Below, piece by piece: positions 662-16,066 of a DNA stretch of 50,447 bases (positions are counted from its first letter, which is position 1; each line of letters starts with the position of its first letter). Source of the DNA: an uncultured Trichormus sp. (GTDB lineage: Bacteria; Cyanobacteriota; Cyanobacteriia; Cyanobacteriales; Nostocaceae). Made by a program: the position numbers and the translations under genes. The stretch is from contig CAKZGI010000328.1 in NCBI GenBank assembly GCA_936914905.1, forward strand, positions 1 through 50,447. Direction: 5' to 3'. The notes under the pieces were generated by a model that searched no databases, had not been told where the DNA came from, and saw only the letters and a program-made list of their open reading frames with translations.

Positions 662-1858
662 TTAGCCTAGGGGAATTATCTGTGGCTGAATTACTAATGT
701 TTCTGTAGCTGTGAAAACCTCTTCTCTAGCCCACTGATCTGCTACCAAAATGTCATTTAAAGAAGGGTTCTGTGTGTTACCCTGTTGATGGTGATCGCAC
801 ACAAACTCAATACACCGAGCAATATCCAAATAGCTAATTTTCTCTTCTAAAAATAGCGCCACAGCTTGCTCATTGGCAGCATTTAAAACCGCAGGCATAG
901 AACCGCCGGCCCTACCCGCAGCATAAGCCAATCGCATACAAGGATATTTTTGATGATCCGGTTCATGGAAAGTTAAATCACCAGATTTCACCAAATTTAA
1001 TCTTTCCCAATTAGTGTAAATTCGCTCCGGCCAAGATAAAGCATAAAGCAAAGGTAAACGCATATCTGGCCAACCAATTTGAGCTAAAACAGAAGTGTCT
1101 TGTAACTCAATCAAAGAATGAATAATACTTTGAGGATGAATTACAATTTCAATATCATCATAATCCACCCCAAACAGATAATGAGCCTCAATAACTTCCA
1201 AACCCTTATTCATCAAAGTTGCCGAATCTACAGTGATTTTTCGTCCCATTGACCAATTAGGATGTTTCAGAGCATCAGCAACTTTTACTTCAGGCAACTT
1301 TTCCACAGGCCAATCACGGAAAGCACCACCAGAAGCAGTAAGTAATATCTTCCTTAAACCACCTTTAGGAACACCTTGGAGACATTGAAAAATCGCCGAA
1401 TGTTCAGAATCTGCTGGTAATAGTTTCACACCATTTTTTTCCACCAGAGGTAAAACCACAGGAGCGCCAGCAATGAGAGTTTCTTTGTTTGCTAAAGCAA
1501 TATCCTTACCTGCTTCAATGGCAGCGATAGTGGGAAGTAAACCCGCACAACCAACAATACCAGTAACAACCGTTTCAACATCACCATAACGAGCCACTTC
1601 TATCACACCCTCTTCACCAGCCAGTAAAACAGGTTGGGGGTTGAGATCCTTAATTGCTTCCTGAAGTTCTATTAACTTATGAGCAGCAGAAATAGCCACA
1701 ATTTGGGGACGAAACTGGCGAATTTGCGCGGCGAACAACTCCACATTCCGCCCAGCAGCCAGTCCAACTATGCGAAACTTATCTGGATGCTCAGAAACGA
1801 TGTCTAAAGTCTGAGTACCAATAGAGCCGGTAGAACCAAGAAGAGTAATAGCTTTCAC
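662..1858 (-). CDS. dxr: 1-deoxy-D-xylulose 5-phosphate reductoisomerase
   Basis: Cytosolic enzyme of the MEP isoprenoid pathway. It rearranges and reduces 1-deoxy-D-xylulose 5-phosphate to 2-C-methyl-D-erythritol 4-phosphate using NADPH, feeding carotenoids, the chlorophyll phytyl tail and quinones. The N-terminal NADPH motif [12 protein letters not shown] lies at residues 8-19. The metal-site segment [10 protein letters not shown] (D150, E152) and the substrate loop [20 protein letters not shown] (201-220) are intact, followed by IHPQSIIHS. The length of 398 residues is normal for the family. It starts at ATG 1858 and is transcribed away from the decayed left edge. About 134 bp separate it from the upstream glycosyltransferase gene on the same strand; that gap contains repeats of GAATTTT and a copy of the AGTTGCTAGTTA dispersed motif. 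Nothing looks damaged. Confidence 0.97.
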
Positions 1859-1992: not shown

Positions 1993-3486
1993 CTAATTTC
2001 CTGACGTTTTAAGCACATAATTAATTTCACGTTCTTTAATTTTGCTACAAGAACCCGGACGTTTATAAACACAAGTTCCTAGCCTACATTGTTGCAAAGA
2101 ATAATTTTGATATGTAGATGGTAGAGGGAAATTACCAACAACATAATTAAAACCTGAATTGGCAATTGCAAAGTCTGTTTTTGTATCAACTTGATATATA
2201 GGTACATCGTGATGAAAATAAGTATAACCTCCTGATAAGGCCCAATTAACACCCCAAAGTCCAAGACCGCATACATTTTCTTCTTTACTTAAACTTTGCA
2301 AGGCTACGAGATTATTAGCAGTAGCATAGAGATGTGTCATTTCCCAATTCGTGCCGAAAGTAGAAAAGCTTAAAGGAGCATAAATATTAAATCTACTCAA
2401 GAGAGCAACAGAAGTTGAACTCCAAAGATAAAGAGAGAGTAATATTGCTATTATCTTGATGTGCAGTGAAGACCATCTGCAAGAAAATTTTAAAACTAAC
2501 TCACGTGTGCCTATTCCTGCTAATATCAACAACATTGGTAATGCTGGATAAATAAAACGATATTCCTTATGAGCCAACAAACTATGAGACAAGATAATAA
2601 TTAAGGCTAAGCATCCCAAAATAGGAATACGACGAAAACCTATAATAGCAAGAATAATAATAGGTATGGATAGCCACGACCAACTTCTGAATAACAAAAT
2701 AAAATATTCATACCAAGGAGAAACACCATATAGTTTACTTCTACCTTCAACAATATTTACCCAAATATTCAACCAGAAAGATTGAAAAGGATAAGACCAA
2801 GTGAAAGCATCCACAGTACCAAACAATAATATAGGAGCTATAATACCTGCGATCATTGGTAACCATTTTTGCTGCCAACCTCGTTTACAAATGTAAACTA
2901 CTGCAAAAATTATAGCTGGTATGAGATGAATTCTTAATGCTAAAGATATTCCTAACAAACATCCTGATGAAAATAGGCGATTTCTAGTGGTAAATAAATC
3001 TTTTCGAACTCCTAAGTAAATTCCAGGTAAGAGGAAATGAGTAGCTACAACTTCGGTAAAAGCTTTGGGTGAAAAATAGATAAACTCAAACCATATAGTA
3101 CAAATAGCGGCACAAATAAAAGCTGTAATTGTTCCTCCTATTTTTTTTCCCCAAACATAAGCAACTAAAATATTACTCAGGGAAAGTAGAGACAAAAAGA
3201 TATTAACTCCTATTAAATATCCAGTAGAACCTTCTCCCATCGATGCCGTAAGGTGCATAACACCTGCTAAAATTCCTGGTAATACCCAAGAACGAATACC
3301 ATCTCTAAATTCCCATGTGACGATACCATTACCAAAAACCAGTCTATGTGCAGGTTCTAGGGATTGAAAAATTTCATCTGCCCAAAATATGTTGGGAAAC
3401 TTTAAAGCCATGCCAACACGCAGTATTAATGCTATAATAATCAGGATGCCTAATAATATGTGTTCTGGTTTCAACAGGCGGTTCAT
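1993..3486 (-). CDS. multi-pass membrane glycosyltransferase, Alg9/PIG-M-like (GT22-type)
   Basis: Predicted inner-membrane glycosyltransferase of 497 residues with about ten hydrophobic segments, starting with residues 11-27. The first periplasmic loop carries an acidic catalytic-type motif (WADEIFQSLEPAHRLVFG, about residues 35-52) followed by TWEFRDGIRSW. Together these are the hallmark of the Alg9-like mannosyltransferase family, which uses a polyprenyl-phosphate-linked sugar donor on the outer face of the membrane. The C-terminal third is a soluble domain with several cysteines. It lies in the same direction as two further ArnT-like genes, so a role in cell-surface glycan or lipid glycosylation is likely; the actual acceptor cannot be told from sequence. 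The frame is intact, unlike its neighbour at 5269-7688. Confidence 0.75.
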   Translation of the reverse strand: MNRLLKPEHILLGILIIIALILRVGMALKFPNIFWADEIFQSLEPAHRLVFGNGIVTWEFRDGIRSWVLPGILAGVMHLTASMGEGSTGYLIGVNIFLSLLSLSNILVAYVWGKKIGGTITAFICAAICTIWFEFIYFSPKAFTEVVATHFLLPGIYLGVRKDLFTTRNRLFSSGCLLGISLALRIHLIPAIIFAVVYICKRGWQQKWLPMIAGIIAPILLFGTVDAFTWSYPFQSFWLNIWVNIVEGRSKLYGVSPWYEYFILLFRSWSWLSIPIIILAIIGFRRIPILGCLALIIILSHSLLAHKEYRFIYPALPMLLILAGIGTRELVLKFSCRWSSLHIKIIAILLSLYLWSSTSVALLSRFNIYAPLSFSTFGTNWEMTHLYATANNLVALQSLSKEENVCGLGLWGVNWALSGGYTYFHHDVPIYQVDTKTDFAIANSGFNYVVGNFPLPSTYQNYSLQQCRLGTCVYKRPGSCSKIKEREINYVLKTSGN

Positions 3487-3718: not shown

Positions 3719-5266
3719 CTACAGACTACTATCATCAGGTGAAATCAATTTAAAACCGTTAGATTCTCCTATAATTTTACTCTGATTTAAATTAATTTTC
3801 TCCCAAGCCTCATTATCCACCAACAAATACGATTTCTTAGACAACATTTCCTGTAAAACTGAAACAGGAACAGCAATCACTCTACAATCACTATAAAAAT
3901 CTAAACTAGGACGACTATAACTAAAAGAAGTATAGATTTTCATTCCCGCTGGAATATTTTGACGAATTAATGCAGCTACTGGTTTAACTGGGAAAGCTTC
4001 ATTTAATTCCCAAATCCAGGATTTTGAACTCATTAACAGCGATAAAACTAAATACATTCCCGCAAATAAAACAGGGATGAAGTTACGATGTTGCCTGATA
4101 ACTAACCATGTAGCAATACCCATACTTATTGCAAAAATAATACCCATAGTAATTAATACAGGTTGTGGATCAGTAATAATAAAGTAAGTACAACCTCCTA
4201 AACCAGCAACAGTTAAGATAGCAAAAAATCCCCCCCAAAGTTTTACTTTAAATTTGCTTTCCTGCCAAATTTCGTTCAAGTTAACACCAACTGCTAAAGC
4301 TAAAAATGGATATATAGGCATTACATACCAGGGGAGTTTTGTATTCATGAATGAGATAGTCACGAGGTAAATAACTGTGCTGATAAGAATCAGACAAGCC
4401 CACGTAGTATGGCGTTTTTTCCAAGCTAAATATAAGCCTCCTGGCAAAAATAATAACCAGGGAAAACCATATTTAAGTATTTCTATTAAGTAAAACCAAG
4501 CAGGTTCGCTATGACCTTCTACAGATTCTACGAGTCGTGCAAAAGTTTGTGATTGCAAATTTATTTGTGAAAAGTTCTCTCCATAATGTTGCCATTGGGC
4601 AATATACCAAGCAATAGGTAAAGTATTTCCTAATAATATTCCTATCCATAAATATAAATTCTTTAACAAGTCAAACTGTCTATTGACTAATATAAATAAA
4701 CTGGCGATTCCTCCCATTAGCAAGACGATCATGCCTTTGGTAAGAGTAATTAGTCCTACACTAAATCCAATACCTAAAGCATAAATTCCTTGCTGACGGG
4801 ATCTTAAAATACAAAGTAATAACAACAAAAAAAATGTAATTACTGCGCCATCTAACATTGCTAGTCTGCCATGACGGACTATAGGTAACATGGTCATGTA
4901 AACCAAACCAGTAAATAATGCTGGTAGACTTTGGTTAAAAACTAAATTTCCTACTGAGTAAAGTAAAGGCACACCTAACGCAGTTAATACTGCACTTGGT
5001 AAGCGTGTTGTCCATTCATTTACACCTCCTAATGAATAAGCAACAGCAATTAACCAATGTATTAAAGGTGGTTTATTATGATATGGTTCACCTCCTAAAG
5101 TTGGATAAAGCCAAACCATTTTATCAACCGGATTACGCCAAATTTCGCGAGCAACTTGAGCTACAGTTCCTTCATCCCAATCTCGTAAGGGGGAGTTTCC
5201 TAAAAATATCAGCCACAAGAATAAAGATGTAACTAATAAACCTAATGACCAGTGTTTACTATTCAT
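3719..5266 (-). CDS. ArnT-like glycosyltransferase (GT39/GT83 family, dolichyl-phosphate-mannose type)
   Basis: Integral membrane glycosyltransferase of 515 residues with about twelve hydrophobic helices. The first periplasmic loop has the family's acidic signature (RDWDEGTVAQVAREIWRN, about residues 28-45), and YHNKPPLIHWLIAVAYSLGG follows, matching the ArnT/PMT KPPL motif. Members take a sugar from undecaprenyl- or dolichyl-phosphate and transfer it to lipid A, proteins or other glycans on the outer face of the membrane. The C-terminal 100 residues are soluble. Its ATG lies 2 bp after the end of the broken gene upstream (5269-7688), so the two were once a tight operon. The coding sequence is intact. 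Donor and acceptor are unknown. Confidence 0.85.
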   Translation of the reverse strand: MNSKHWSLGLLVTSLFLWLIFLGNSPLRDWDEGTVAQVAREIWRNPVDKMVWLYPTLGGEPYHNKPPLIHWLIAVAYSLGGVNEWTTRLPSAVLTALGVPLLYSVGNLVFNQSLPALFTGLVYMTMLPIVRHGRLAMLDGAVITFFLLLLLCILRSRQQGIYALGIGFSVGLITLTKGMIVLLMGGIASLFILVNRQFDLLKNLYLWIGILLGNTLPIAWYIAQWQHYGENFSQINLQSQTFARLVESVEGHSEPAWFYLIEILKYGFPWLLFLPGGLYLAWKKRHTTWACLILISTVIYLVTISFMNTKLPWYVMPIYPFLALAVGVNLNEIWQESKFKVKLWGGFFAILTVAGLGGCTYFIITDPQPVLITMGIIFAISMGIATWLVIRQHRNFIPVLFAGMYLVLSLLMSSKSWIWELNEAFPVKPVAALIRQNIPAGMKIYTSFSYSRPSLDFYSDCRVIAVPVSVLQEMLSKKSYLLVDNEAWEKINLNQSKIIGESNGFKLISPDDSSL

Positions 5267-5268
5267 AT

Positions 5269-7688
5269 TTAGGAGTTGATTAATGGCAGAGATTCCATGA
5301 TATTTGTAACCTTTTTTAATGTTTTTACTTCTGGTATATCTGGTTTTGTTTGTTCGGGCATAACTAATCGTCTTTCAGCTAATCTTGGTTGAAATTTATA
5401 TAAATGAACAAAGGCTAAATATGTCCATAGGTAAGGATTTTGAATATCATATTTAGTTAATTCTATCAAATTATGGATTAATTCTAGTGCTTTGCTTTGT
5501 GAAAGTTCTGAAAAAATCAGAGTATAACGCTAATTGAGGTTGTTTAGTTTATTTTGCAGGTAATATGTCTTAAATAATCTTGAGTAGGATCATATCGATT
5601 GAAATTATTTACCTGCTCAAATATATATTCTAATATACCATTTTTTGATTCTGCTACTAATAGTGAGATGCGGTAAACTAAATCTAAAGGTGGTGATCTT
5701 TATATGTTTCCTCTATCTATAACATTTACAGTCAGATTTTGAATATTTAAACGTTTGATTTGGCGATTTATTCTATCTAAATAGAAAGCTAAGAGTTGAC
5801 ATTTTCCTAAAGGTAGTGTTTTGGGTGAAAATGTAGATACATGCTCAATTACTCCAAAAGTTCCTTGGGGATTATACCTAAAACCACAGTATGGATTTCC
5901 CACTGTGATCGCATGATCATGATACCACGAAAATTGCTGATTTTGCCATCTTAATAGTAATAGACCATTTTGTAAATCGTCCCATTTACTTATTACTTAC
6001 AAAGTAACAGGATTATTTTTTCCTCTGATTAATAGATTGGCAATTTTAACGTTTCTTAAGGTAACTTCATGATCAATAATATCTGATTTTTGAATTACTA
6101 TATTGAGATTTTTACGATAAAATAATCGCAATTTATCATTATTCGGTAATTCTCACTTAGCTTGTAATTTTAAATCAGGAGAACATTCAACTAAAAATTT
6201 TAATTTGCGTTTAACTTCCCCTTCTTCTCCTGCTTGTTCTAGTTCGTTATCTATTGTGATATACCAGGAAAATACTGTAAATCTTGGTTGACATCAGCTA
6301 ATTCTATGGTTAATTTCCTAGCATGTATGCGAAAGTCTGCTAATTTAGCGTAATAATCTACAGTCAATTCGTTTATTTGCGGTTTATAAACCGGAATTAT
6401 CCCCAAAGTCGACCTTAAATACGGAGTTGTTTGGTTAATTTCATCTATTAATTGAGAAAGGGGATATTTTTTAGCGTCATCATTGGACAAATGTCTTCCT
6501 CCCCATGCTTGTATTAATGGCAAAGGAAACGAGTTATTCAATAAAACTATGACGCCGAATCCTAAAGTTACTAATCTCAGTCTATCAAAGCTGAGATTTT
6601 CTATTATCTGGAAGAAGTAAGCTAAAATCAAACTGATGATGGGAAAAATAGGAAGAATATATATAATATCTCTATTTGTATCTAAAGTGCGAAGTATGTA
6701 ACTGTTGAATAGGGTAATTAATAACCATATCAAACCGGAATTTCCCAAACTTTATTTAATTGCATCTTGAGAAAATTTATGTTTAGTTAAATAAACTGAT
6801 AAAATCCCTAAACTCACACATAATATTGGTAAGCCGACAGTTTATAGTGCAAGTTGCAGATAAAATAACCATCCGGCAATGGTTTTTACAGCAGGATCTC
6901 CTTCCCTTTTTCCAACACTGTTAGCGTGTAAAGCTGAAGTGATAATTGTTAACCAACTGACACTATAGCAACAACTACAAATTGAGCAAGCGGAAATTAA
7001 CGATAAACCTGATTGAATTATTCTAATAAATTTTCGGTTTTTTACAAAGGTAATTAATGTCCAGATTCCAGGAATTAAAATAAAAATAAATCCTGTGGGT
7101 TTAGCTAACATGATTTACCCTATTCCTAATCCCAATATAAAAGTTAATGTCCATCAGATAAAACTGGTGTAACTATTTCTCCAAATGATTAAAATAGTAA
7201 ATGTTGAAAATGACGATTGCTGTTAAACTTCAATCTAATAAATAATCTATTGTGAAAATTACCAATATAGGAAATAGTAGACAAAAAATTCTGGCAGTTA
7301 TAGCTGTTTTGAGATTTCCAAATAAATATTTTCCTAAATTATATACAGATAATATAATTATTGCTGAATATAATAAATTAACTAAACTTGCTTGGTCGTA
7401 TCCCTGAGCAAACAGAAATAAGAAGGGGGCTGCATTACTATATACAAAGTAAGCGCGATAACTAGGGGCCAATTGCCACAGATATAACCACCATTCCCCT
7501 GAGAATAAATTAAAATCCTCAAAGATGCGATAATGACTTAATGCTCTTTTTAAATGTTCGCTTTGATCATGACGTGGGATAGAGTTATCTAATAAAAACC
7601 AAGTTCTATCTATAAATAATGCCATTAACCAAACTACTAATAGTATGAGATAATCCTTTTTAGATTTAGAATAATGGGAATAATTCAT
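5269..7688 (-). pseudogene. decayed large ArnT-like membrane glycosyltransferase
   Basis: A chain of minus-strand fragments reads in order as one protein of about 800 residues. The N-terminus is at 7688-7230 (MNYSHYSKSKKDYLILLVVW..., then the DNSIPRHDQSEHL loop and APSYRAYFVYSNAAPFLFLF). Hydrophobic helices follow at 7111-6842, and helices plus the start of a soluble region at 6748-6251. C-terminal soluble pieces lie at about 6240-5700 (including GNPYCGFRYNPQGTFGVIEH), about 5700-5560, and 5520-5269. The fragments are separated by stops and frameshifts. One nonsense codon sits in the C-terminal piece near 5530, and the final frame then runs cleanly to a stop 2 bp before the next gene. The acidic first loop and overall plan resemble GT39 enzymes with an added C-terminal domain. 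No intact product is possible. It lies in a stretch without HIP1 sites. Confidence 0.8.
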
Positions 7689-7921
7689 ATTTACAGTAAC
7701 ACGACTTTTTACTAGATTGAATTATCTATATCCTGAAAAGAATTTCTAGTTCAATAACTAAACTGGAGTTTCTGAATTAGAAGATGAAATTCAACAATTT
7801 TTGTTCTCAAACTCTGATTTTACTGGGTAAAACTAATTCATAGTTTCAGTCAGAAATGCTACAAAATTCCGATTTTACATAAGCTGTTGTGGATTCAACA
7901 AATCTAGATTAAAAACTGTGT

Positions 7922-8884
7922 ATAAAATTATCAATTATTGTTAACCGGCCGATCTATTCCCTAGTTATCCCCATTTACAACGAAGAAGAAAATATTACAG
8001 AAATGTATAGCCGTCTAATTAATGTCATGGAGAAATTAGATGGTTATGCTGAACTAACTTTAATTGATTATGGTAGCGGCGATCACTCTTTAAGTATGAT
8101 CTGCTAACTCCATCATCATGATAGTCGAGTAGGTTACCTTAGTCTAGCTAGAAATTTCGGTCATCAAGTCGCAGTCACCGCAGGTTTAAATTTTGCCCAA
8201 GGTAAAAGCATCATTGTCATGGATGCTGACTTACAAGACCCTCCAGAATTAATTTTAACCATGATTGACAAATGGCATGAAGGATATCAAGTCGTTTATG
8301 CCCAACGTATCTCACATCAAAAAGAAGGTTGGCTAAAACGCTTTACTGCATATCTTTTTTTTATCGTCTTCTCAAGCGTTTGGCTCAACTTGACATCCCT
8401 GTGGATACAGGAGACTTCTATTTAATGGATATACAGGTAGTAAATATCCTCAATGCTATGGCAGAAAGTAACCGCTACATTCGTGCCTTACGTGCTTGGG
8501 TCGGTTGTTAACAAACGTCCGTACTTTTTGAAAGAAATCCCCGTTATCCAGGGGATGTAAAATATACTTTTGATAAATCTTTATCTTTAGCAATTTATGG
8601 TATTATTTCTTTTTGCAGAGTTCCTCTCAGACTAGCTACTTTTTTAGGGCTTTTATCGGCTGCTATTGCTTTAATTATGATATTAGTCGTGCTTTACTGG
8701 CGGATATTTCCACCAGTATCTCCCTTAATAGGCTATACATTAATTACATGCTATGTTTTTCTTAGGGCCTATACAGTTAATTTGTATTGGTATTTTGGGT
8801 GAATACATTGGTCGGATATATGAAGGAGTGAAGGGTTGTCCTCTTTATACGCTTAAAGAAACCGGAGGTTTTACAAAAACTTGA
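7922..8884 (+). pseudogene. decayed GT2 polyprenyl-phosphate glycosyltransferase (GtrB/DPM1/ArnC-like)
   Basis: Pieces of a typical GtrB-like enzyme can be followed from [20 protein letters not shown] through [20 protein letters not shown] and the catalytic DADLQDPPE motif (8222-8248). They continue to the two C-terminal membrane helices and the family ending [20 protein letters not shown] up to TGA 8884. Damage: an in-frame TAA near 8106, a frameshift between about 8340 and 8390, a TAA at 8509-8511 within what should be RxWVGxxQT, and a frameshift near 8765 in the last helix. Intact relatives load a sugar from a nucleotide donor onto undecaprenyl phosphate at the cytoplasmic face, providing donors for ArnT-like enzymes such as those at 3719-7688. 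The gene is clearly dead. Confidence 0.9.
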
Positions 8885-8897
8885 TCTACTTAACCCA

Positions 8898-9088
8898 AGT
8901 TGCTACTTATAACTATAAGTATTTTCACTCCCCCTAAATCCACGCCAGTTGCTCATGGCGGAAACCCCCAAGACCGCACTGGCTTCCCTTAAAAAGGGGG
9001 ATTTTTATTCCGTTTCCCCCCTTATCAAGGGGTTAGGGGGGATCTAGTTCAGAAATAAACCTGAATATTGGTAACTAGCAACTTACGT
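8898..9088. repeat. composite interspersed repeat with degenerate inverted ends
   Basis: The ends carry CCAAGTTGCTACTTA on the left and, inverted, TAACTAGCAACTTACG on the right. Between them lie G/C-tract palindromes (CCCCCTAAATCC paired with AAGGGGGATT, and CCCCCCTTATCAAGGGG followed by TTAGGGGGGATC) and a segment beginning ACGCCAGTTGCTCATGGCGG. These blocks are characteristic Nostocales intergenic repeats. Related C/G-tract sequence recurs inside the Fd-GOGAT gene at 14066-14092, and the AGTTGCTAGTTA end motif recurs at 1920, 26349 and 26439. It contains no gene. Confidence 0.6.
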
Positions 9089-9094
9089 TACTTA

Positions 9095-9280
9095 GAGGGT
9101 GTTTGAAAAGTCATGCTGTAGCCTGCCTCCCTCAGGGTACGTAGCTCAGCGAGGTGAAGCATTTCAGATTAATTGCTCAAACCTAGGTTCTAGAGCCTCG
9201 GGCAGGCTTCGCGTTAACACAGTATTCCTTCGGGATACTGCGTGACAAATCATACCTCTTATAAATTTTCAAACATCCTC
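9095..9280. mobile_element. 186-bp MITE with TTA target-site duplication
   Basis: The left end reads GAGGGTGTTTGAAAA and the right end, inverted, GAGGATGTTTGAAAA. These are 15-bp terminal inverted repeats with one mismatch. The element is flanked by TTA at 9092-9094 and TTA at 9281-9283, a 3-bp target duplication as expected of IS5-family-like transposition. The interior has no coding capacity and includes a small palindrome (CAGTATTCCTTCGGGATACTG region). It is therefore non-autonomous and would need a transposase from elsewhere. It lies between two dead genes. Confidence 0.8.
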
Positions 9281-9359
9281 TTAGAGTCCTGATTTTTTCA
9301 CAAGTGATTTCTCTTGTTATTTATCCCAAAATCAGAATTAAAACAATCAGGTAATATCA

Positions 9360-9719
9360 GTGTCTCCACCAGAATTTAGTTTACTGCTAATATCAGTTCT
9401 CACCAGTGTTGCTGGACAGTTTATATTAAAAATGGGAGCATTAAAATTAGGTAAAGTTGCCAGCATGAACTTTTTCAGTGTAGTTTTCTACATTATCACC
9501 ATACCAGAACTTTTATTAGGACTTACCTGTTATGGTATTGGTGTGATCGCTTATATCCTACTCTTAACAAGAGTTAATCTCAGTGTTGCTGCTCCTGCTA
9601 TATTAGTTGGTTATATCTTTTCTGTATTACTGGGTTACTGTATTCTCAAATAACCGTTTCCTTTACTCCATATTGTATAATTAGGTTTAATTATGACGGG
9701 AGTGATATTAGTAGTCTGA
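9360..9719 (+). pseudogene. truncated EamA/ArnE-like small membrane transporter
   Basis: A GTG-started frame gives 97 residues with four hydrophobic helices (LLLISVLTSVAGQFILKMGA at the start, ending VGYIFSVLLGYCILK). This matches one half of an EamA/DMT transporter, close to the ArnE/ArnF sugar-lipid flippase subunits. A TAA at 9651-9653 interrupts it. The same frame then continues PFPLLHIV, a second TAA, and LGLIMTGVILVV to TGA 9719, which is the expected C-terminus (last helix) of the family. Two nonsense mutations thus remove about 20 residues including part of the last helix. A residual function of the 97-residue product is possible but unlikely. It sits between the dead GT2 gene and the deacetylase, fitting a lost lipid-linked sugar pathway. 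Confidence 0.75.
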
Positions 9720-9721
9720 CG

Positions 9722-9940
9722 AAAATAACTTCAAAATCAGAATTATTGATTGTCGTTGAAACACAACCTCATTATCTATATAGGAAAATTATTTTTTTGT
9801 ATCCTGGAACAGTATCTATGTTAACGAATAAATATGACTTGAACATGGGAAAATATGATCAGTTGTCTTTTACTTATCCAACTATTGGATGAACTTTCGA
9901 AAACAATAATATACATCTGAAGATTGAATTTTCTCTTTAA
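9722..9940 (+). pseudogene. unidentified gene fragment with an internal stop
   Basis: A frame of 72 codons (containing ELLIVVETQPHYLYRKIIF) lacks a start codon, is interrupted by TGA at 9890-9892 and ends at TAA 9940. Composition is coding-like. It follows directly on the transporter remnant. I do not recognise the family. Confidence 0.3.
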
Positions 9941-9960
9941 AATGTAGGAACAGACTTCGG

Positions 9961-10007
9961 CAGTAACATTGCTACAATGCTACAATACTACTGTAGCATT
10001 GTTACTG
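9961..10007. repeat. 16-bp inverted repeat (hairpin)
   Basis: CAGTAACATTGCTACA (9961-9976) pairs with TGTAGCATTGTTACTG (9992-10007) with a single mismatch around a 15-base loop. There is no T-tract after it, so it is not a convincing terminator. The rest of 9941-10318 holds no gene that I can read; short membrane-like peptides near 10008-10070 may be further debris. Confidence 0.55.
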
Positions 10008-10318
10008 ATAGCTTGTGTCGTTACTTTAGGACAGATACTCTATTCTTATGGACTATTTATGTGTAATAATCATTGATTCAATATCCTACTGTGTAGACAA
10101 AAGTACAAAAGTCAGAGATTCATTACTGAAAGCTAGTCGTGGAATGCTAAATACTCGGGTTTTAGGAAAATAAGTATAATTTTCCCGCCTAAATTTCGGA
10201 TTTTCTGTAGCTTTGTATCGCAATTTTCATGATTACTAGTAAATCATTGAGTATCTAAATATTCAGACAAAATTTGTTATAACCTACCGTCAAAAACATG
10301 AGTGATGGTTAAACCCCC

Positions 10319-10338
10319 AAGGAGATATAAGGAGATAT
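10319..10338 (+). promoter_or_regulatory. tandemly duplicated Shine-Dalgarno sequence
   Basis: AAGGAGATAT occurs twice in direct succession (10319-10328 and 10329-10338). The second AAGGAG lies 7 bases before the GTG at 10342. This fixes the start of the deacetylase and is an unusually strong, doubled ribosome-binding site. Confidence 0.65.
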
Positions 10339-10341
10339 ATA

Positions 10342-11250
10342 GTGGAACACAATAAGTCGTTTTTTTGGCAGCAGGGAATATTAATTACATTACTTTGCCT
10401 AACTGGTACTGTAGGCATTGGTTTTATGATGCTTGTGAAGCCAAATATCTCTGATGCACAAAATCGGCACGATATCAGTAGTAATGATATTGCTGCTAAC
10501 TTAGGCACTCAGCAACGGATTGAGGCTTTTAAGGCGACAATACTCACCAGTTGGCAGCAAGAAGCACAAGCAAAAGGTATTACCACTGATGTGCCATCAC
10601 GCTTTCAAGGTGAAACAATTAAAGCCGCAACACTCCCCCCAGATCAGAAAGTGATTGCACTCACCTTTGATGATGGACCTTGGCCGAAAAGCACCGCACT
10701 AATCCTTGATATTCTCAAAAAAAATAATATTAAAGGCACATTTTTTGTCCTTGGGGAAAATGTAAAAAATTATCCAGATTTAACTAAACGAATAGTTGCT
10801 GAAGGTCATACCATTGCTAATCATACTTGGTATCACTGGTATCATAAAATGAACCCGCAAACCGCAGCCTATGAAGTTGCTAATACATCAGATATTATTT
10901 TTAAAACTACAGGCATAAAAACAGGTTTGTTTCGTCCACCTGGTGGGATTATGAATAATGGAGTAGCAGCTTACGCTAGAAGTAATAAGTATGCAATTAT
11001 TATGTGGTCTTCAGACTCAACAGACTATTCTCGTCCTGGTGTACCAAGATTAATTAACAATATTTTCAGGTCAGCAAAACCTGGTGGTATTGTATTAATG
11101 CATGATGGCGGTGGTGATCGCTCTCACACAGTTAAAGCCTTACCAGAAGTTATTAATAAATTCCGCAAGCAAGGCTATGAGTTTGTCACCATTCCAGAAA
11201 TGCTAGAAATGCAAGATAAACATCAACAGTTACTTGCTAAGAAGAAGTAG
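10342..11250 (+). CDS. polysaccharide deacetylase, NodB domain (carbohydrate esterase 4)
   Basis: Membrane-anchored or secreted deacetylase of 302 residues. A hydrophobic N-terminal helix (about residues 12-32) is followed by a linker and a NodB domain (about 103-290). All CE4 motifs are present: TFDDGP (108-113, with D110 and metal ligand D111), the HxxxH metal ligands in NHTWYHWYH (H161, H165), RPPGG (198-202), the D-S-T segment (DSTDYSRPG) and LMHDGGG (H254). It should therefore be a metal-dependent N- or O-deacetylase acting outside the cytoplasm, on peptidoglycan or an exopolysaccharide. The GTG start is supported by the doubled ribosome-binding site. It is the only intact gene in an otherwise dead 5.3-10.3 kb stretch. 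ArnD also belongs to this superfamily, but the N-terminal anchor argues for an exported enzyme. Confidence 0.88.
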   Translation: MEHNKSFFWQQGILITLLCLTGTVGIGFMMLVKPNISDAQNRHDISSNDIAANLGTQQRIEAFKATILTSWQQEAQAKGITTDVPSRFQGETIKAATLPPDQKVIALTFDDGPWPKSTALILDILKKNNIKGTFFVLGENVKNYPDLTKRIVAEGHTIANHTWYHWYHKMNPQTAAYEVANTSDIIFKTTGIKTGLFRPPGGIMNNGVAAYARSNKYAIIMWSSDSTDYSRPGVPRLINNIFRSAKPGGIVLMHDGGGDRSHTVKALPEVINKFRKQGYEFVTIPEMLEMQDKHQQLLAKKK

Positions 11251-11338
11251 TGATTGGTAATGGATGATTGGAGATTGGTGATTGGTAATGGGTAATTGGT
11301 AATTTGTAAAAACTCTTACCCAGTCCCCAGTCCCCAAC
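11251..11338. repeat. short tandem intergenic repeats
   Basis: Degenerate copies of GATTGGTAATGG and TGGTAATTGGTAAT are followed by CCCAGTCCCCAGTCCCC. This is the common low-complexity filler of Nostocales spacers. It lies between convergently ending genes (deacetylase on plus, Fd-GOGAT on minus). Confidence 0.6.
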
Positions 11339-14300
11339 TTAAACCGAACTTAACTGTTTACTTACCTTCTCAGTTTCAGCATTAGCTTCTGGACTGTCAG
11401 CTTCTGAAGGTGGTACAACTTGCCAGAATTTAGGGAGATATTCTGACCAATTTTGTAAGATTAATTGCGCTTTTCGTGAACTAGTACGATCACCATGAGC
11501 CTTAATCAAATCATATAGTTGTTTTGCACCAGCTTCTGTCACTACCCGCTGAATTTTGACAACAGCCTTATTAACCAGTTGAGGGAAAGCACCATCTTCA
11601 TCTAAGAAGTAACCCAGTCCCCCAGTCATTCCAGCACCAACATTGCGACCCACCTTACCCAGAACCACAACTGCACCACCAGTCATGTATTCACAGCAGT
11701 GATCACCAGCCCCTTCAATTACCGCTGTACCTTTAGAATTACGTACAGCAAAGCGTTCTCCGGCTAAACCGTTGGCAAATAATACACCACCAGTTGCACC
11801 ATAAAGACAGGTATTGCCAACAATCACATTTTGTGATGGGTCATAGTCAGCATCTGCTGGGGGCTTAATGATGATTTCTCCCCCGTGCATTCCCTTACCT
11901 ACATAGTCGTTAGCTTCCCCTATCAAAGCGAGGGTTAAACCAGGAAGGTTAAACGCGCCAAAGCTTTGGCCCGCACTACCTTGGAAATTTAGGTTAATTT
12001 GACCGTCAAAGCCACTGTCACCGTATTGGGATGCGATCGCCCCTGCTAGTCTTGAACCTACTGTTCTATCGGTGTTGACGACTGTAAAAGTCTTGCTGAT
12101 GCTCGATTGATTGCTAATTGCAGCTTGAATATCCGTATCAGCTAGAATTTGGTCATCTAACACATATCCATTGCTGTGAACTTCTTCATGTACCAACCAG
12201 CTACGATTTTGTTTTGCGTCTGGTAGCTTAGTTAAGCAGTCTAAGTTGATGGATTGGGTTTTAGCCAGGTTCACATCAGAATGCACTGTTAACAAATCCG
12301 CCCTACCAGTCAGTTCTGTTAAGGATCGATAACCCAGTTTAGCTAACAAACTGCGAACCTCTTCCGCCACAAAATAGAAGAAGTTAACAACATGGTCTGG
12401 GATACCTGTAAAGCGTTGACGCAATTCTTCCTTCTGAGTGGCCACACCCTTGGGACAAGTATTTAAATGACACACCCTTGCCATAATACAGCCTTCAGCA
12501 ATCATGGCGATAGAACCGAAACCGAACTCTTCCGCACCCATTAAGGAAGCAACCAGAATATCCCAGCCACTCTTGAGACCACCATCAACTCTTAAAATCA
12601 CGCGATCGCGCAATCCATTTTCCATCAACACCCGATGCACTTCGCTCAGTCCGAGTTCCCACGGACTGCCAGCGTGTTTAATAGAACTCAAAGGAGATGC
12701 ACCAGTACCGCCATCATGACCAGAAATTTGGATAATATCAGCATTAGCTTTCGCCACACCAGCCGCTATAGTACCAATCCCGATTTCCGCAACCAACTTC
12801 ACAGAAACCTGTGCTTTTGGGTTAATTTGATGCAAGTCAAAAATCAACTGCGCCAAATCTTCAATCGAGTAAATATCATGGTGTGGTGGTGGAGAAATCA
12901 AAGTTACACGAGGCTTAGAACGGCGCAACATAGCAATATAGGGGCTGACCTTTGGACCGGGTAACTGTCCACCTTCCCCTGGTTTTGCACCTTGAGCGAT
13001 TTTGATTTCGATTTGTTTGGCGCTGGCTAAATATCCCGGTGTGACACCGAAACGACCAGAAGCAACTTGTTTTATGGCGCTTGAAGCTGTATCACCATTT
13101 CGCAACCCATTTAAATGGGGGAAAGTGGGTGAATGACCACTTGAGTCAACATCATTTAACACTTTGTAACGAACTGGATCTTCCCCACCTTCACCAGAGT
13201 TAGATTTACCACCAATGCGATTCATGGCGATAGCTAAAGTTTCATGTGCCTCTCGTGATAATGCACCTAAAGACATTCCCCCAGTACAGAAGCGTTTAGC
13301 AATTTCGCTGACTGACTCTACTTCTTCAATCGGAATCGAAGGACGCTCACTGGCAAAATCCAACAAATCCCGTAACGCCGTTGTCGGTCTACCTTGCAAA
13401 TAATGTTTATAAACTTCGTAATGGTCATAAATATGACCATCTACAGCCTTATGCAGCGCCTTGACCAGTTCCGGGCAATTACTATGATATTCACCACCAG
13501 GACGATACTGAACAAAGCCGAGATTTTCTAACTTCTTCGCTGTCAGTTCGGGGAAGGCCTTACTGTGGAAAGAAAGCACCTCTTGAGCTAATTCCTTGCA
13601 ACTAAGGCCACCAATCCGGGAAGTTGTTCCTCTAAAACCCAAAGCCAACAAATCCCCACCGATACCAATAGCTTCAAAAATTTGTGCCGCCTGATAGCTA
13701 GAAAGTAGAGAAATCCCCATTTTTGAGAGAATTTTCAACAAACCTGATTCTACAGCTTGGCGATAATTTGCGATCGCCTGTTCTAGAGTCAGAGTATTAA
13801 TTTTCCCCCTTTCCATAAACTGTTGCGTTTTCGGATCAGACCACCAGTCCCGGACAGTATCCAACGCCATATAGGGACAAACCACACCAGCACCATAGCC
13901 GAACAAACAAGCAAAATGATGAGTACTCCAACATTGGGCGGTGTGAACAACCAAAGATGTTTTCATCCGCACACCTTCGCGGATCAAATAATGGTGAACC
14001 GCACCAATAGCCAACAAAGGTGGAATATAAGTAAAATCAGCACTTATCCCACTAATGGCTTCTTCGCCCCCCTTGAAAAGGGGGGTTGGGGGTATCTTAT
14101 CACTCAAGATCAAAATTTTCGCACCAGCGCGCACAGATTCCGCTGCTTGTTTTTGTAAAGCTTCCACCGCCCCTTTTAAACCCTCTGGACCTGCAGCAAT
14201 AGAAAACAAAGTTGACAACTCAGCAGTCGCAAAACCAGATAACTTAATTGCTGCTAACTCAGTCTCCGTCAATACAGGCGAATCTAACTTCAATTTGCGA

Positions 14301-16066
14301 GCGTGTTCTGGTTTCGGTTCTAATAAGTTACCTCTTTCACCCAGTTCCAGCGTCAAAGACATCACGAGCTTTTCCCGTAAAGGGTCAATCGGTGGGTTTG
14401 TCACCTGAGCAAACCGCTGTTTAAAATAGTCATACAGCAGGTGGGGTTTTTCTGATAACACCGCCAAGGGAATATCATCCCCCATGCAAAAAGTTGGTTC
14501 TGCACCAGTATGAGCCATCGGCTGAATCACCATTTCCACATCTTCTGTGGTGTAGCCAAAAGCAATTTGTTGTTGGAGTAAAGTTTGTTTTTCTGGTATG
14601 TCAGTGGTCAGATGTCCATTGTCAGTCCCATGACGACCATTACCGTCACCATTGACAGCTGACGGTTTTACCAACTGTTTCAATTCTTGGCGATATTGTT
14701 GCAACCAATCCCCATAAGGATGTAGCTTGGCAATACGCTGTTTAATTTCCCAGTTCTTCAGAATCTCATTGCTGGTTAAATCCACAGCAATCATTTGTCC
14801 TGGACCCAATCTACCTTTTTCCAAAATATTGGCTTCTGGGAAGCCCACCACACCCGCTTCAGAACCAACTACGATATAGTCATCTTTAGTAATCAAATAG
14901 CGAGCTGGTCTTAAACCATTACGGTCTAAAGTCGCACCCACTCTTTTTCCATCACTAAATACCAACAACGCAGGGCCATCCCAAGCTTCTTGCAGACCAC
15001 TGTAATATTCATAAAAATCAACAATCTCAGGATAATTTTGCAAAGAAGGTTGATTTTTGTAAGCCTCTGGAACCATCATCATTAAAGCTTCCAAAGGGCA
15101 GCGTCCAGAACGCACCAGCAACTCCAGTACGTTATCAAGAGTAGCTGAATCGCTGCTGTCAGTATTTACCAATGGTTTAAATTCCTCGGATCTTCCATTC
15201 CAAACCGGATGATCTAAGGTAGCTTCTCTGGCCATCATCCAGTTAATATTACCCAGCAGTGTATTAATTTCGCCATTGTGACCCAATAGCCGCATGGGTT
15301 GTGCTAAAGGCCACTTCGGCATCGTGTTGGTACTAAACCGACGATGATAAACAGCAAAGGCAATCTTGAAAGCCGGATTTTTTAAATCCTGGTAAAATTC
15401 TCCCAACACCGCCGAACGTACCATACCCTTATAGACAATTGTGCAGCTCGATAGGGAACAGACATAAAATTCCTCGGAAATATTTTTGGCTGCTTTAACA
15501 ATACGGCGACGGGCAATATACAATTCCCGTTCTAATTCATCGCCACTTTTATCAGCCGACGCTAAAAAAACTTGTTCTATCTGGGGTTGATTTTCTTTTG
15601 CTTGTATCCCTAATACTTCTGAACGCACAGGGACTACTCGCCAGCCCAGCACAGTCAATTTTTCCTCAGCCGCTACTTGCTCAAATATAGCCTTGACTTT
15701 TTTTGCTGATTCCTGATCTTGAGGCAAGAATATCATTCCTGCTGCCACATTACCAGTATTTGAAACATTAATTCCTTCTTGTTGAAACAATTCCCAAGGA
15801 ATCGCTGTCAAAATCCCTGCACCATCACCAGAGTCTTGGTCGGCGCTGCATCCTCCTCTATGTTCTAAGCAAGTCAGAGCAGTTAAAGCCTTTGCCAAAA
15901 TTTCATGATTGGCGCGATTTTGCCGATGGGCTATAAACCCTACACCACAAGCGTCTCTTTCCTCTGATAACCATCTTTGTCCTGAGTAAGTATCCGTGAT
16001 TTCCATGTCTGACAATGTAATGTTTTGACCCATGTTTTGACCCTGATTCAATGATTGATGATTCAT
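11339..16066 (-). CDS. glsF: ferredoxin-dependent glutamate synthase (Fd-GOGAT)
   Basis: Central nitrogen-assimilation enzyme. It converts 2-oxoglutarate and glutamine to two glutamates with electrons from reduced ferredoxin, in the GS-GOGAT cycle. Order: short propeptide, then the class II glutamine amidotransferase domain starting at Cys40 ([14 protein letters not shown]), the central domain, the FMN-binding synthase domain ([40 protein letters not shown]), the 3Fe-4S cluster motif C-x5-C-x4-C ([12 protein letters not shown]), and the C-terminal GXGXG beta-helix ([14 protein letters not shown]). The absence of a gltD-type partner nearby fits the ferredoxin type. At 1575 residues it is slightly longer than usual. 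The excess corresponds to two repeat-derived in-frame inserts (about residues 467-492 and 656-670). Expression is probably under nitrogen control, but I saw no clear NtcA site. Confidence 0.96.
14055..14095. repeat. C/G-tract interspersed repeat inserted in frame in glsF
   Basis: The stretch CCCCCCTTGAAAAGGGGGG followed by TTGGGGG belongs to the same class as the intergenic repeat at 9016-9046. On the coding strand it is read as PPTPLFKGG. It interrupts the otherwise conserved passage ILILSD...[13 protein letters not shown] of Fd-GOGAT, adding about 14 residues without breaking the frame. Confidence 0.75.
14592..14668. repeat. second repeat-like in-frame insert in glsF
   Basis: Direct and inverted copies of GTCAGTGGTCAG / CATTGTCAGTCC-like sequence, resembling spacer repeats, encode a low-complexity segment ([20 protein letters not shown]). 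It lies between the amidotransferase and central domains (about residues 467-492). The segment is hydrophilic and lies in a linker, so it is probably tolerated. Confidence 0.5.

Follow-up and report, generated by a model that had tools for sequence, protein, structure and literature searches.

Selective decay in a putative Gtr-like glycosylation locus between dxr and gltB of Nostocales cyanobacteria

The window analysed here is a stretch of 50,447 nucleotides, contig C328 of the genome of an uncultured Trichormus sp. (G000; 5.87 Mb in 485 contigs, 99.99% complete and 3.5% contaminated). It was compared with the sister genome G001, the one other member of the genus compared, which is 92% identical to the window over the region, and with relatives in a set of 99 genomes of the family. 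Open frames and domain searches give the following order from dxr to gltB, with GT22, PMT and PMT2 on the minus strand and then GT2, SMR and the deacetylase gene on the plus strand:

662 to 1858, minus strand: dxr, conserved flank of the locus (open frame; neighbour in many relatives)
1993 to 3486, minus strand: Alg9-like (GT22) membrane glycosyltransferase, intact, another GT-C gene at this locus (PF03901, E 2.7e-35; dN/dS 0.41 against G001)
3719 to 5266, minus strand: PMT, intact GT-C transferase of predicted ArnT fold, 515 aa (one open frame; PMT_2/PMT domains; dN/dS 0.316)
5267 to 7688, minus strand: PMT2 pseudogene, for a protein of about 810 aa (lesions; intact orthologues; low-confidence model)
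7943 to 8887, plus strand: GtrB-type GT2 pseudogene, predicted polyprenyl-phosphate sugar synthase (lesions; intact orthologue resembling Synechocystis GtrB)
9360 to 9725, plus strand: pseudogene of an SMR-type small transporter, proposed flippase (stop at codon 98 of 122)
10342 to 11250, plus strand: NodB-domain deacetylase, intact, 302 aa, PgdA/PdaB-like, with a hydrophobic N-terminus (open frame; dN/dS 0.17)
11339 to 16066, minus strand: gltB, large subunit of glutamate synthase, conserved flank (open frame; adjoins the deacetylase gene in relatives)

The product names of the two flanking genes, dxr and gltB, are those that we take them to have from their sequences. The five features of the preliminary description, namely PMT, PMT2, GT2, SMR and the deacetylase, were recovered where it had placed them by open frames, domains and comparison of lesions, and the GT22-like gene occurs also in loci L009, L010, L011 and L044. 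The gltB frame (11339-16066) contains an in-frame 11-residue peptide that resembles a translated interspersed repeat, the DNA at 8919-9270 between the dead GT2 and SMR genes is repeat-like with CCCCCTTA/TAAGGGGG stretches, and at 11250-11305, after the deacetylase gene, units of 14 bases are repeated in a short tandem array, where 27 bases are missing in G001.

Lesions were read against intact Sphaerospermopsis genes, with an 808-aa open frame of Sphaerospermopsis aphanizomenoides as the reference for PMT2. The PMT2 gene carries nine stops in the reference frame together with frame-changing indels, and the GT2 gene is broken by two stops in its reference frame and two indels of 2 bases. Stops at GT2 codon 190, SMR codon 98 and PMT2 codons 567 and 729 are common to G000 and G001, besides private lesions, so that the simplest reading is that all three genes had died, or had at least been damaged, before the two lineages split. 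Sequencing error as the source of the stops is rejected, since at least one stop per dead gene recurs in G001. Nucleotide identity between the two genomes is 86.7-91.2% in the dead genes and 87.6-90.9% in the gaps inside the locus, 93.9% in PMT, 96.2% in GT22 and 97.5% in the deacetylase gene, and 96.3 and 98.4% in two short outer intergenic gaps. The dN/dS values against G001 are 0.32 for PMT, 0.33 for dxr, 0.41 for GT22, 0.17 for the deacetylase and 0.13 for gltB; the pooled dead pieces give 0.80 (range 0.39-1.40), from which PMT differs significantly (Fisher P 7e-4). The value of 0.39 belongs to the 5' piece of GT2; it is lower than expected for a long-dead gene and counts against the interpretation favoured below. 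Decay is selective: GtrB, SMR and PMT2 drift, while PMT and the deacetylase are under selection. The earlier impression of a locus being lost is therefore borne out for the donor genes GT2 and SMR and for PMT2, but not for PMT, the GT22-like gene and the deacetylase. Remnants of GT2 show that the gene was lost in L009, L010, L011 and L019 as well as in the window and G001. On the PMT tree at least four changes of GT2 presence are needed (12 loci with full GT2, 36 with GT2 absent or a remnant; 4 loci with too short a flank omitted), a count of changes that cannot separate gain from loss.

In the 99 genomes, orthologues of GT2 are found in 46, of SMR in 59, of PMT in 47 and of PMT2 in 16. For GT2, 63 genomes matched at E 1e-60, of which 57 were kept (46 of clade A, 11 of clade B) and 6 distant ones (38-49%) dropped; for SMR, 64 matched at 1e-8, with 59 kept and 5 weak ones dropped. 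PMT matched at 1e-100 in 97 genomes, 47 of them with at least 60% identity being kept and the rest representing a paralogue, and for PMT2 16 matches with at least 61% identity were kept from 52, 36 at 32-40% being dropped. The deacetylase has matches in 97 genomes, with positions entered for 91. An intact paralogue of PMT, 49% identical, lies in the source genome itself (G000:C334:30079-31605).

The gene order of the window recurs in these relatives. Of the 42 genomes with both GT2 and SMR, 40 have the two side by side on one strand (three of these pairs are broken, in G000, G001 and G053). GT2 is divergent from PMT at a distance of up to 4.5 kb in 22/24 and from PMT2 within 1 kb in 11/11, PMT2 and PMT lie within 4 kb of each other in 14/16, and the deacetylase gene lies opposite PMT within 7 kb in 42/47 and follows GT2 on its strand in 40/45. 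All five genes are open frames in the same order in seven loci (L012, L140, L141, L142, L143, L145 and L146); L144 differs from its six companions among L140-L146 in having no open SMR, and G014 has five stop-free matches, with PMT2 and PMT lying further apart. In L012, from Sphaerospermopsis, the GtrB orthologue spans 5981-6925. Scattered or never adjacent genes, which the preliminary description had named as the outcome that would refute its interpretation, are thus not what relatives show. In Nostoc, many PMT loci have neither GT2 nor the deacetylase, which counts against the favoured interpretation.

The nearest solved relative of the intact GT2 orthologue is Synechocystis GtrB (E 1.1e-101, against 1.5e-48 for ArnC), and the ArnC model scores 183.9 bits against a cut-off of 529. 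The best NCBIfam model is PgfS (E 8.6e-88, below its cut-off). By homology the GT2 is a predicted polyprenyl-phosphate sugar synthase of the GtrB type, and of the ArnC/GtrB kind assigned earlier to this dead gene the GtrB side is retained and the ArnC side given up. GtrB of Synechocystis PCC 6803 (Sll0501) makes UndP-glucose from UDP-glucose (PMC4728340). In 12 loci (L147-L149, L151-L153, L155-L159 and L161) the gene immediately upstream of GT2 encodes a SAM-methyltransferase. The small transporter is best, though weakly, matched by ArnF (E 1e-8) and ArnE (5e-8), both under cut-off, in agreement with its earlier description as a truncated protein of ArnE/F kind. With 122 aa and a place beside GT2 in nearly all genomes that have both, it fits the slot of a Gtr-type small flippase and is here called a putative flippase. 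Position 16 of the SMR protein, the presumed counterpart of Glu14 in EmrE, is Ser in 8/8 aligned rows. Among SMR proteins that transport glycolipids, Asn is reported to be frequent at the central Glu position of the drug and guanidinium transporters (PMC9574504, a review).

By its modelled fold PMT is a GT-C transferase: the model (pLDDT 84) superimposes on CmArnT with Z 33.0 (3.9 A over 483 residues), the next best match having Z 24.6. The ArnT signature comprises RYA with Tyr43 and YFEKP with Lys69, residues that are reported to be essential (PMC5377068). At these sites the window PMT has TVA and YHNKP, keeping the Lys and replacing the Tyr by Val, and in an alignment of 18 rows the Lys is found in 18/18 and the Tyr in 5/18. 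Of the two ArnT-like transferases described earlier, one intact and one dead, the states and the ArnT fold of PMT are upheld; PMT fails the ArnT signature, and the dead gene is no second ArnT-like copy, since PMT2, at about 810 aa, is a distinct protein with no Pfam match and no relative of solved structure found by sequence.

The deacetylase likewise points away from Arn. Its match to the PdaB model (E 4e-54) scores 183 bits, below the cut-off of 237, and among solved structures it comes closest to peptidoglycan deacetylases of the PgdA/PdaC type (PgdA, E 2.3e-41). Ten NCBIfam models match at E up to 1, with PdaB, PgdA, NodB and PdaA the best and ArnD not among them. With a NodB domain nearest to those enzymes, the protein is on sequence grounds of the PgdA/PdaB type, so that the intact NodB domain of the preliminary description is kept and the ArnD identity finds no support. 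Its gene adjoins gltB even in loci devoid of GT2 and SMR (e.g., L016, L022 and L045), and its presence in 97/99 genomes, against 46 for GT2 and 47 for PMT, as well as its peptidoglycan-type relatives, speak against the deacetylating step that had been proposed for the pathway; it is probably an envelope enzyme of independent function. A true Arn-type aminosugar pathway, in which a formamido or amino sugar is loaded on a lipid, deacylated by the NodB enzyme, flipped and transferred to lipid A or another acceptor, would agree with the ArnT fold of PMT, with ArnE and ArnF being the best models for SMR, all below cut-off, and with the deacetylase gene following GT2 on the same strand in most genomes. 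Such a pathway is nevertheless highly improbable, as GT2 is nearer to GtrB than to ArnC, the RYA Tyr is missing from PMT, the best deacetylase models are those of PdaB, PgdA, NodB and PdaA, the deacetylase occurs regardless of GT2, and ArnA, the enzyme for the UDP-Ara4N precursor (NF005998), is over cut-off in 0/3 genomes (G000, G001 and G054), with partial half-matches on separate genes. We dropped the Arn label on the evidence of GT2, the PMT signature, ArnA and the deacetylase; what endures of the earlier assignment is that the predicted parts correspond to the steps by which a lipid-linked sugar is loaded (GT2), flipped (SMR) and transferred (PMT, PMT2).

A low-confidence model of PMT2 built from 12 sequences (mean pLDDT 50) shows a helix-rich N-terminal part, a beta-sandwich and a C-terminal part of TPR-like helices, and sequence searches give a very weak match to the ArnT model (E 0.0087) and a weak TPR match at the C-terminus. 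No identity was drawn from the structure comparison, in which the matches cover only the beta-sandwich at about residues 539-661 (Z up to 9.2) and mix sugar-binding with unrelated proteins. The missing Pfam match, the very weak ArnT match and the poor model count against the favoured interpretation, and PMT2 is taken here as a putative GT-C transferase. When only intact genes are considered, and G000 and G001 omitted, GtrB is present in 14/14 genomes with PMT2 against 55/97 overall (P 1.6e-4), and by genus in 10/10 against 35/55 (P 0.006), both counts treating related genomes or genera as independent. Nine of the 14 PMT2 genomes have the locus form GtrB-A and five have GtrB-B elsewhere. Genomes that keep PMT2 intact but have no GtrB-A at this locus were predicted to carry GtrB-B, and 4/4 (L009, L041, L042 and L043) do, at 70-72% identity; L009 still has a remnant of GtrB-A.

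These observations bear on an alternative, that the gap between dxr and gltB is permissive and has gathered unrelated envelope genes, whose adjacency reflects shared descent and no common pathway. The contents of the locus do vary widely, and many genomes retain PMT in the absence of GT2 and SMR. We consider this alternative unlikely, since the GT2-SMR pair holds together in 40/42 genomes, SMR pairs with another polyprenyl-type GT2 elsewhere, and intact PMT2 never occurs without GtrB in 97 genomes, even where GtrB sits at another locus.

For PMT the link to GtrB is looser. GtrB is present in 33/47 genomes with PMT against 57/99 overall, a weak association (Fisher P 0.025), so that PMT may use GtrB where present; strict dependence is rejected, because of the 45 other PMT genomes 31 have GtrB and 14 lack it. 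As PMT2 always occurs with GtrB and PMT does not, the lost pathway is probably GtrB-SMR-PMT2. The survival of PMT could also mean that it too depends on GtrB and has merely not yet been lost, and besides the weak association, the loss of GtrB in both members of the genus and the faster divergence of PMT than of the deacetylase (93.9 against 97.5% of nucleotides) fit such a view. It is distinctly unlikely, as the dN/dS of PMT resembles that of dxr and those 14 genomes keep PMT with no GtrB. The best remaining full-length GT2 of the general type in G000, on contig C319, is a DPM-like protein of 329 aa, 29% identical, with an orthologue in 98/99 genomes, and it is a candidate maker of the donor for PMT.

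Where the donor genes are conserved, the transferases may differ. Between L012 and L047 identity is 91% for GT2, 85% for SMR, 81% for the deacetylase and 68% for PMT, and between L047 and L144 it is 93% for GT2, 94% for dxr, 87% for gltB and again 68% for PMT; the PMT proteins of L012 and L144 are 88% identical. By the first outer loop PMT proteins fall into two classes, 'TYA...LLKPP' and 'TVA/TIA...HNKPP'. Together with this, all 15 fetched GtrB-A loci without a PMT orthologue carry at least one of the membrane-protein clusters 2, 4, 13 and 15, of which cluster 2 is a weak PMT_2 match, 4 and 15 are DUF2079 proteins and 13 has no Pfam match; one further locus outside the 15, L162, has a distant paralogue. 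We take DUF2079 to belong to the GT-C group. The comparison suggests that the donor pair is conserved and the transferases are exchanged between loci, with the weak or absent Pfam support of clusters 2, 13 and 16 counting against it.

From homology, neighbourhoods, lesions, selection and co-occurrence we propose, at a probability of roughly 0.65, that the genes between dxr and gltB form a chromosomal, Gtr-like three-component glycosylation locus of Nostocales. GtrB would charge polyprenyl phosphate with a hexose, probably glucose, passage of the loaded lipid-sugar across the membrane would fall to the SMR protein, and GT-C transferases would pass the sugar to an outside acceptor, here PMT2 and elsewhere PMT, DUF2079 proteins and further membrane proteins, the donor pair staying while the transferases are swapped. 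The GtrB-SMR-PMT2 pathway would then have been lost in the common ancestor of G000 and G001, and PMT would most likely have survived because of another lipid-linked sugar, for instance from the DPM-like GT2.

The proposed locus shares features with several known systems. In Shigella and its phages gtrA and gtrB are reported to be conserved and interchangeable and gtr(type) to be variable (PMC3259042). As in this O-antigen glucosylation by GtrA, GtrB and Gtr(type), there is a GtrB-type donor synthase, a small flippase-like protein and a set of seemingly exchangeable GT-C transferases, and as in Gtr-type systems generally a GT-C transferase in the cluster (PMT, by fold) varies between strains, with lower and discordant identities. 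Unlike in Shigella, however, the small protein matches ArnE/ArnF-type models and is not called GtrA, and the locus is chromosomal, cyanobacterial and endowed with several transferases. Synechocystis GtrB (Sll0501) is the nearest solved relative of GT2, which differs from it in being accompanied by a small transporter and transferases; the available part of PMC4728340 names no partner genes or physiological role for the Synechocystis enzyme. With the Arn (L-Ara4N) pathway of lipid A modification the locus has in common the fold of PMT, the resemblance of SMR to its flippase and a GT2 of the wider ArnC/GtrB group, but it differs in the missing RYA Tyr, in ArnA below cut-off in three genomes and in a deacetylase of another branch. 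The likeness to Streptococcus Pgf protein glycosylation concerns PgfS alone, the best though sub-threshold GT2 model, in another organism and other gene surroundings. Pentofuranose (GT136) systems also combine a donor synthase, a flippase and a GT-C transferase; these have a MATE flippase and a ribose donor (PMC11127046), unlike the locus here.

The structure of a cyanobacterial GtrB serves as a model for the polyprenyl-phosphate sugar synthases, and the accessible portions of the literature searched describe no cyanobacterial pathway for this enzyme. The locus supplies a flippase candidate and transferase candidates for GtrB, and the window's genus pair, A. catenula, Trichormus NMC-1 and A. 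lutea are natural knock-outs, which together make the role of GtrB testable by comparison of strains. Should the transferases be swapped in the way that the sequences suggest, the surfaces of bloom-forming cyanobacteria may vary by the same logic as in O-antigen serotype conversion. Our searches of the open-access literature returned no report on the locus, and within these searches the earlier suggestion that it could be undescribed holds.

The second GtrB clade offers an independent clue to the passage of such lipids across membranes. The split into A and B was made by rank, and the 15 B rows form one side of a fully supported branch. GtrB-B lies directly behind a gene with a VTT/DedA domain in 14/15 distinct genomes (L135-L139, L187-L189 and L191-L197); the exception, G098, has no VTT gene beside GtrB-B and has an SMR gene near its deacetylase gene. 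GtrB-A and GtrB-B never occur together in the 99 genomes, and SMR of the window type is found in 2/11 GtrB-B genomes. A DedA protein has been reported to be necessary for modification of lipid A with Ara4N in Burkholderia (PMC7835334). It is conceivable, though doubtful, that GtrB has two alternative export partners, SMR at the dxr-gltB locus and DedA/VTT elsewhere, with the DedA protein moving the polyprenyl-phosphate sugar or returning the carrier, and that either partner feeds an exchangeable pool of GT-C transferases, a chromosomal serotype-like switch in Nostocales that the window's lineage would have dropped. SMR without GtrB was found in 15 genomes, and of the seven such loci examined five (L128, L130, L132, L133 and L134) have an AglJ/DPM-like GT2 alongside. 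Both the VTT and the AglJ-like pairings support, short of proof, a carrier-lipid role of the small membrane proteins. Four of the five loci with SMR and an AglJ-like GT2 also encode a membrane protein of 571-685 aa belonging to one cluster.
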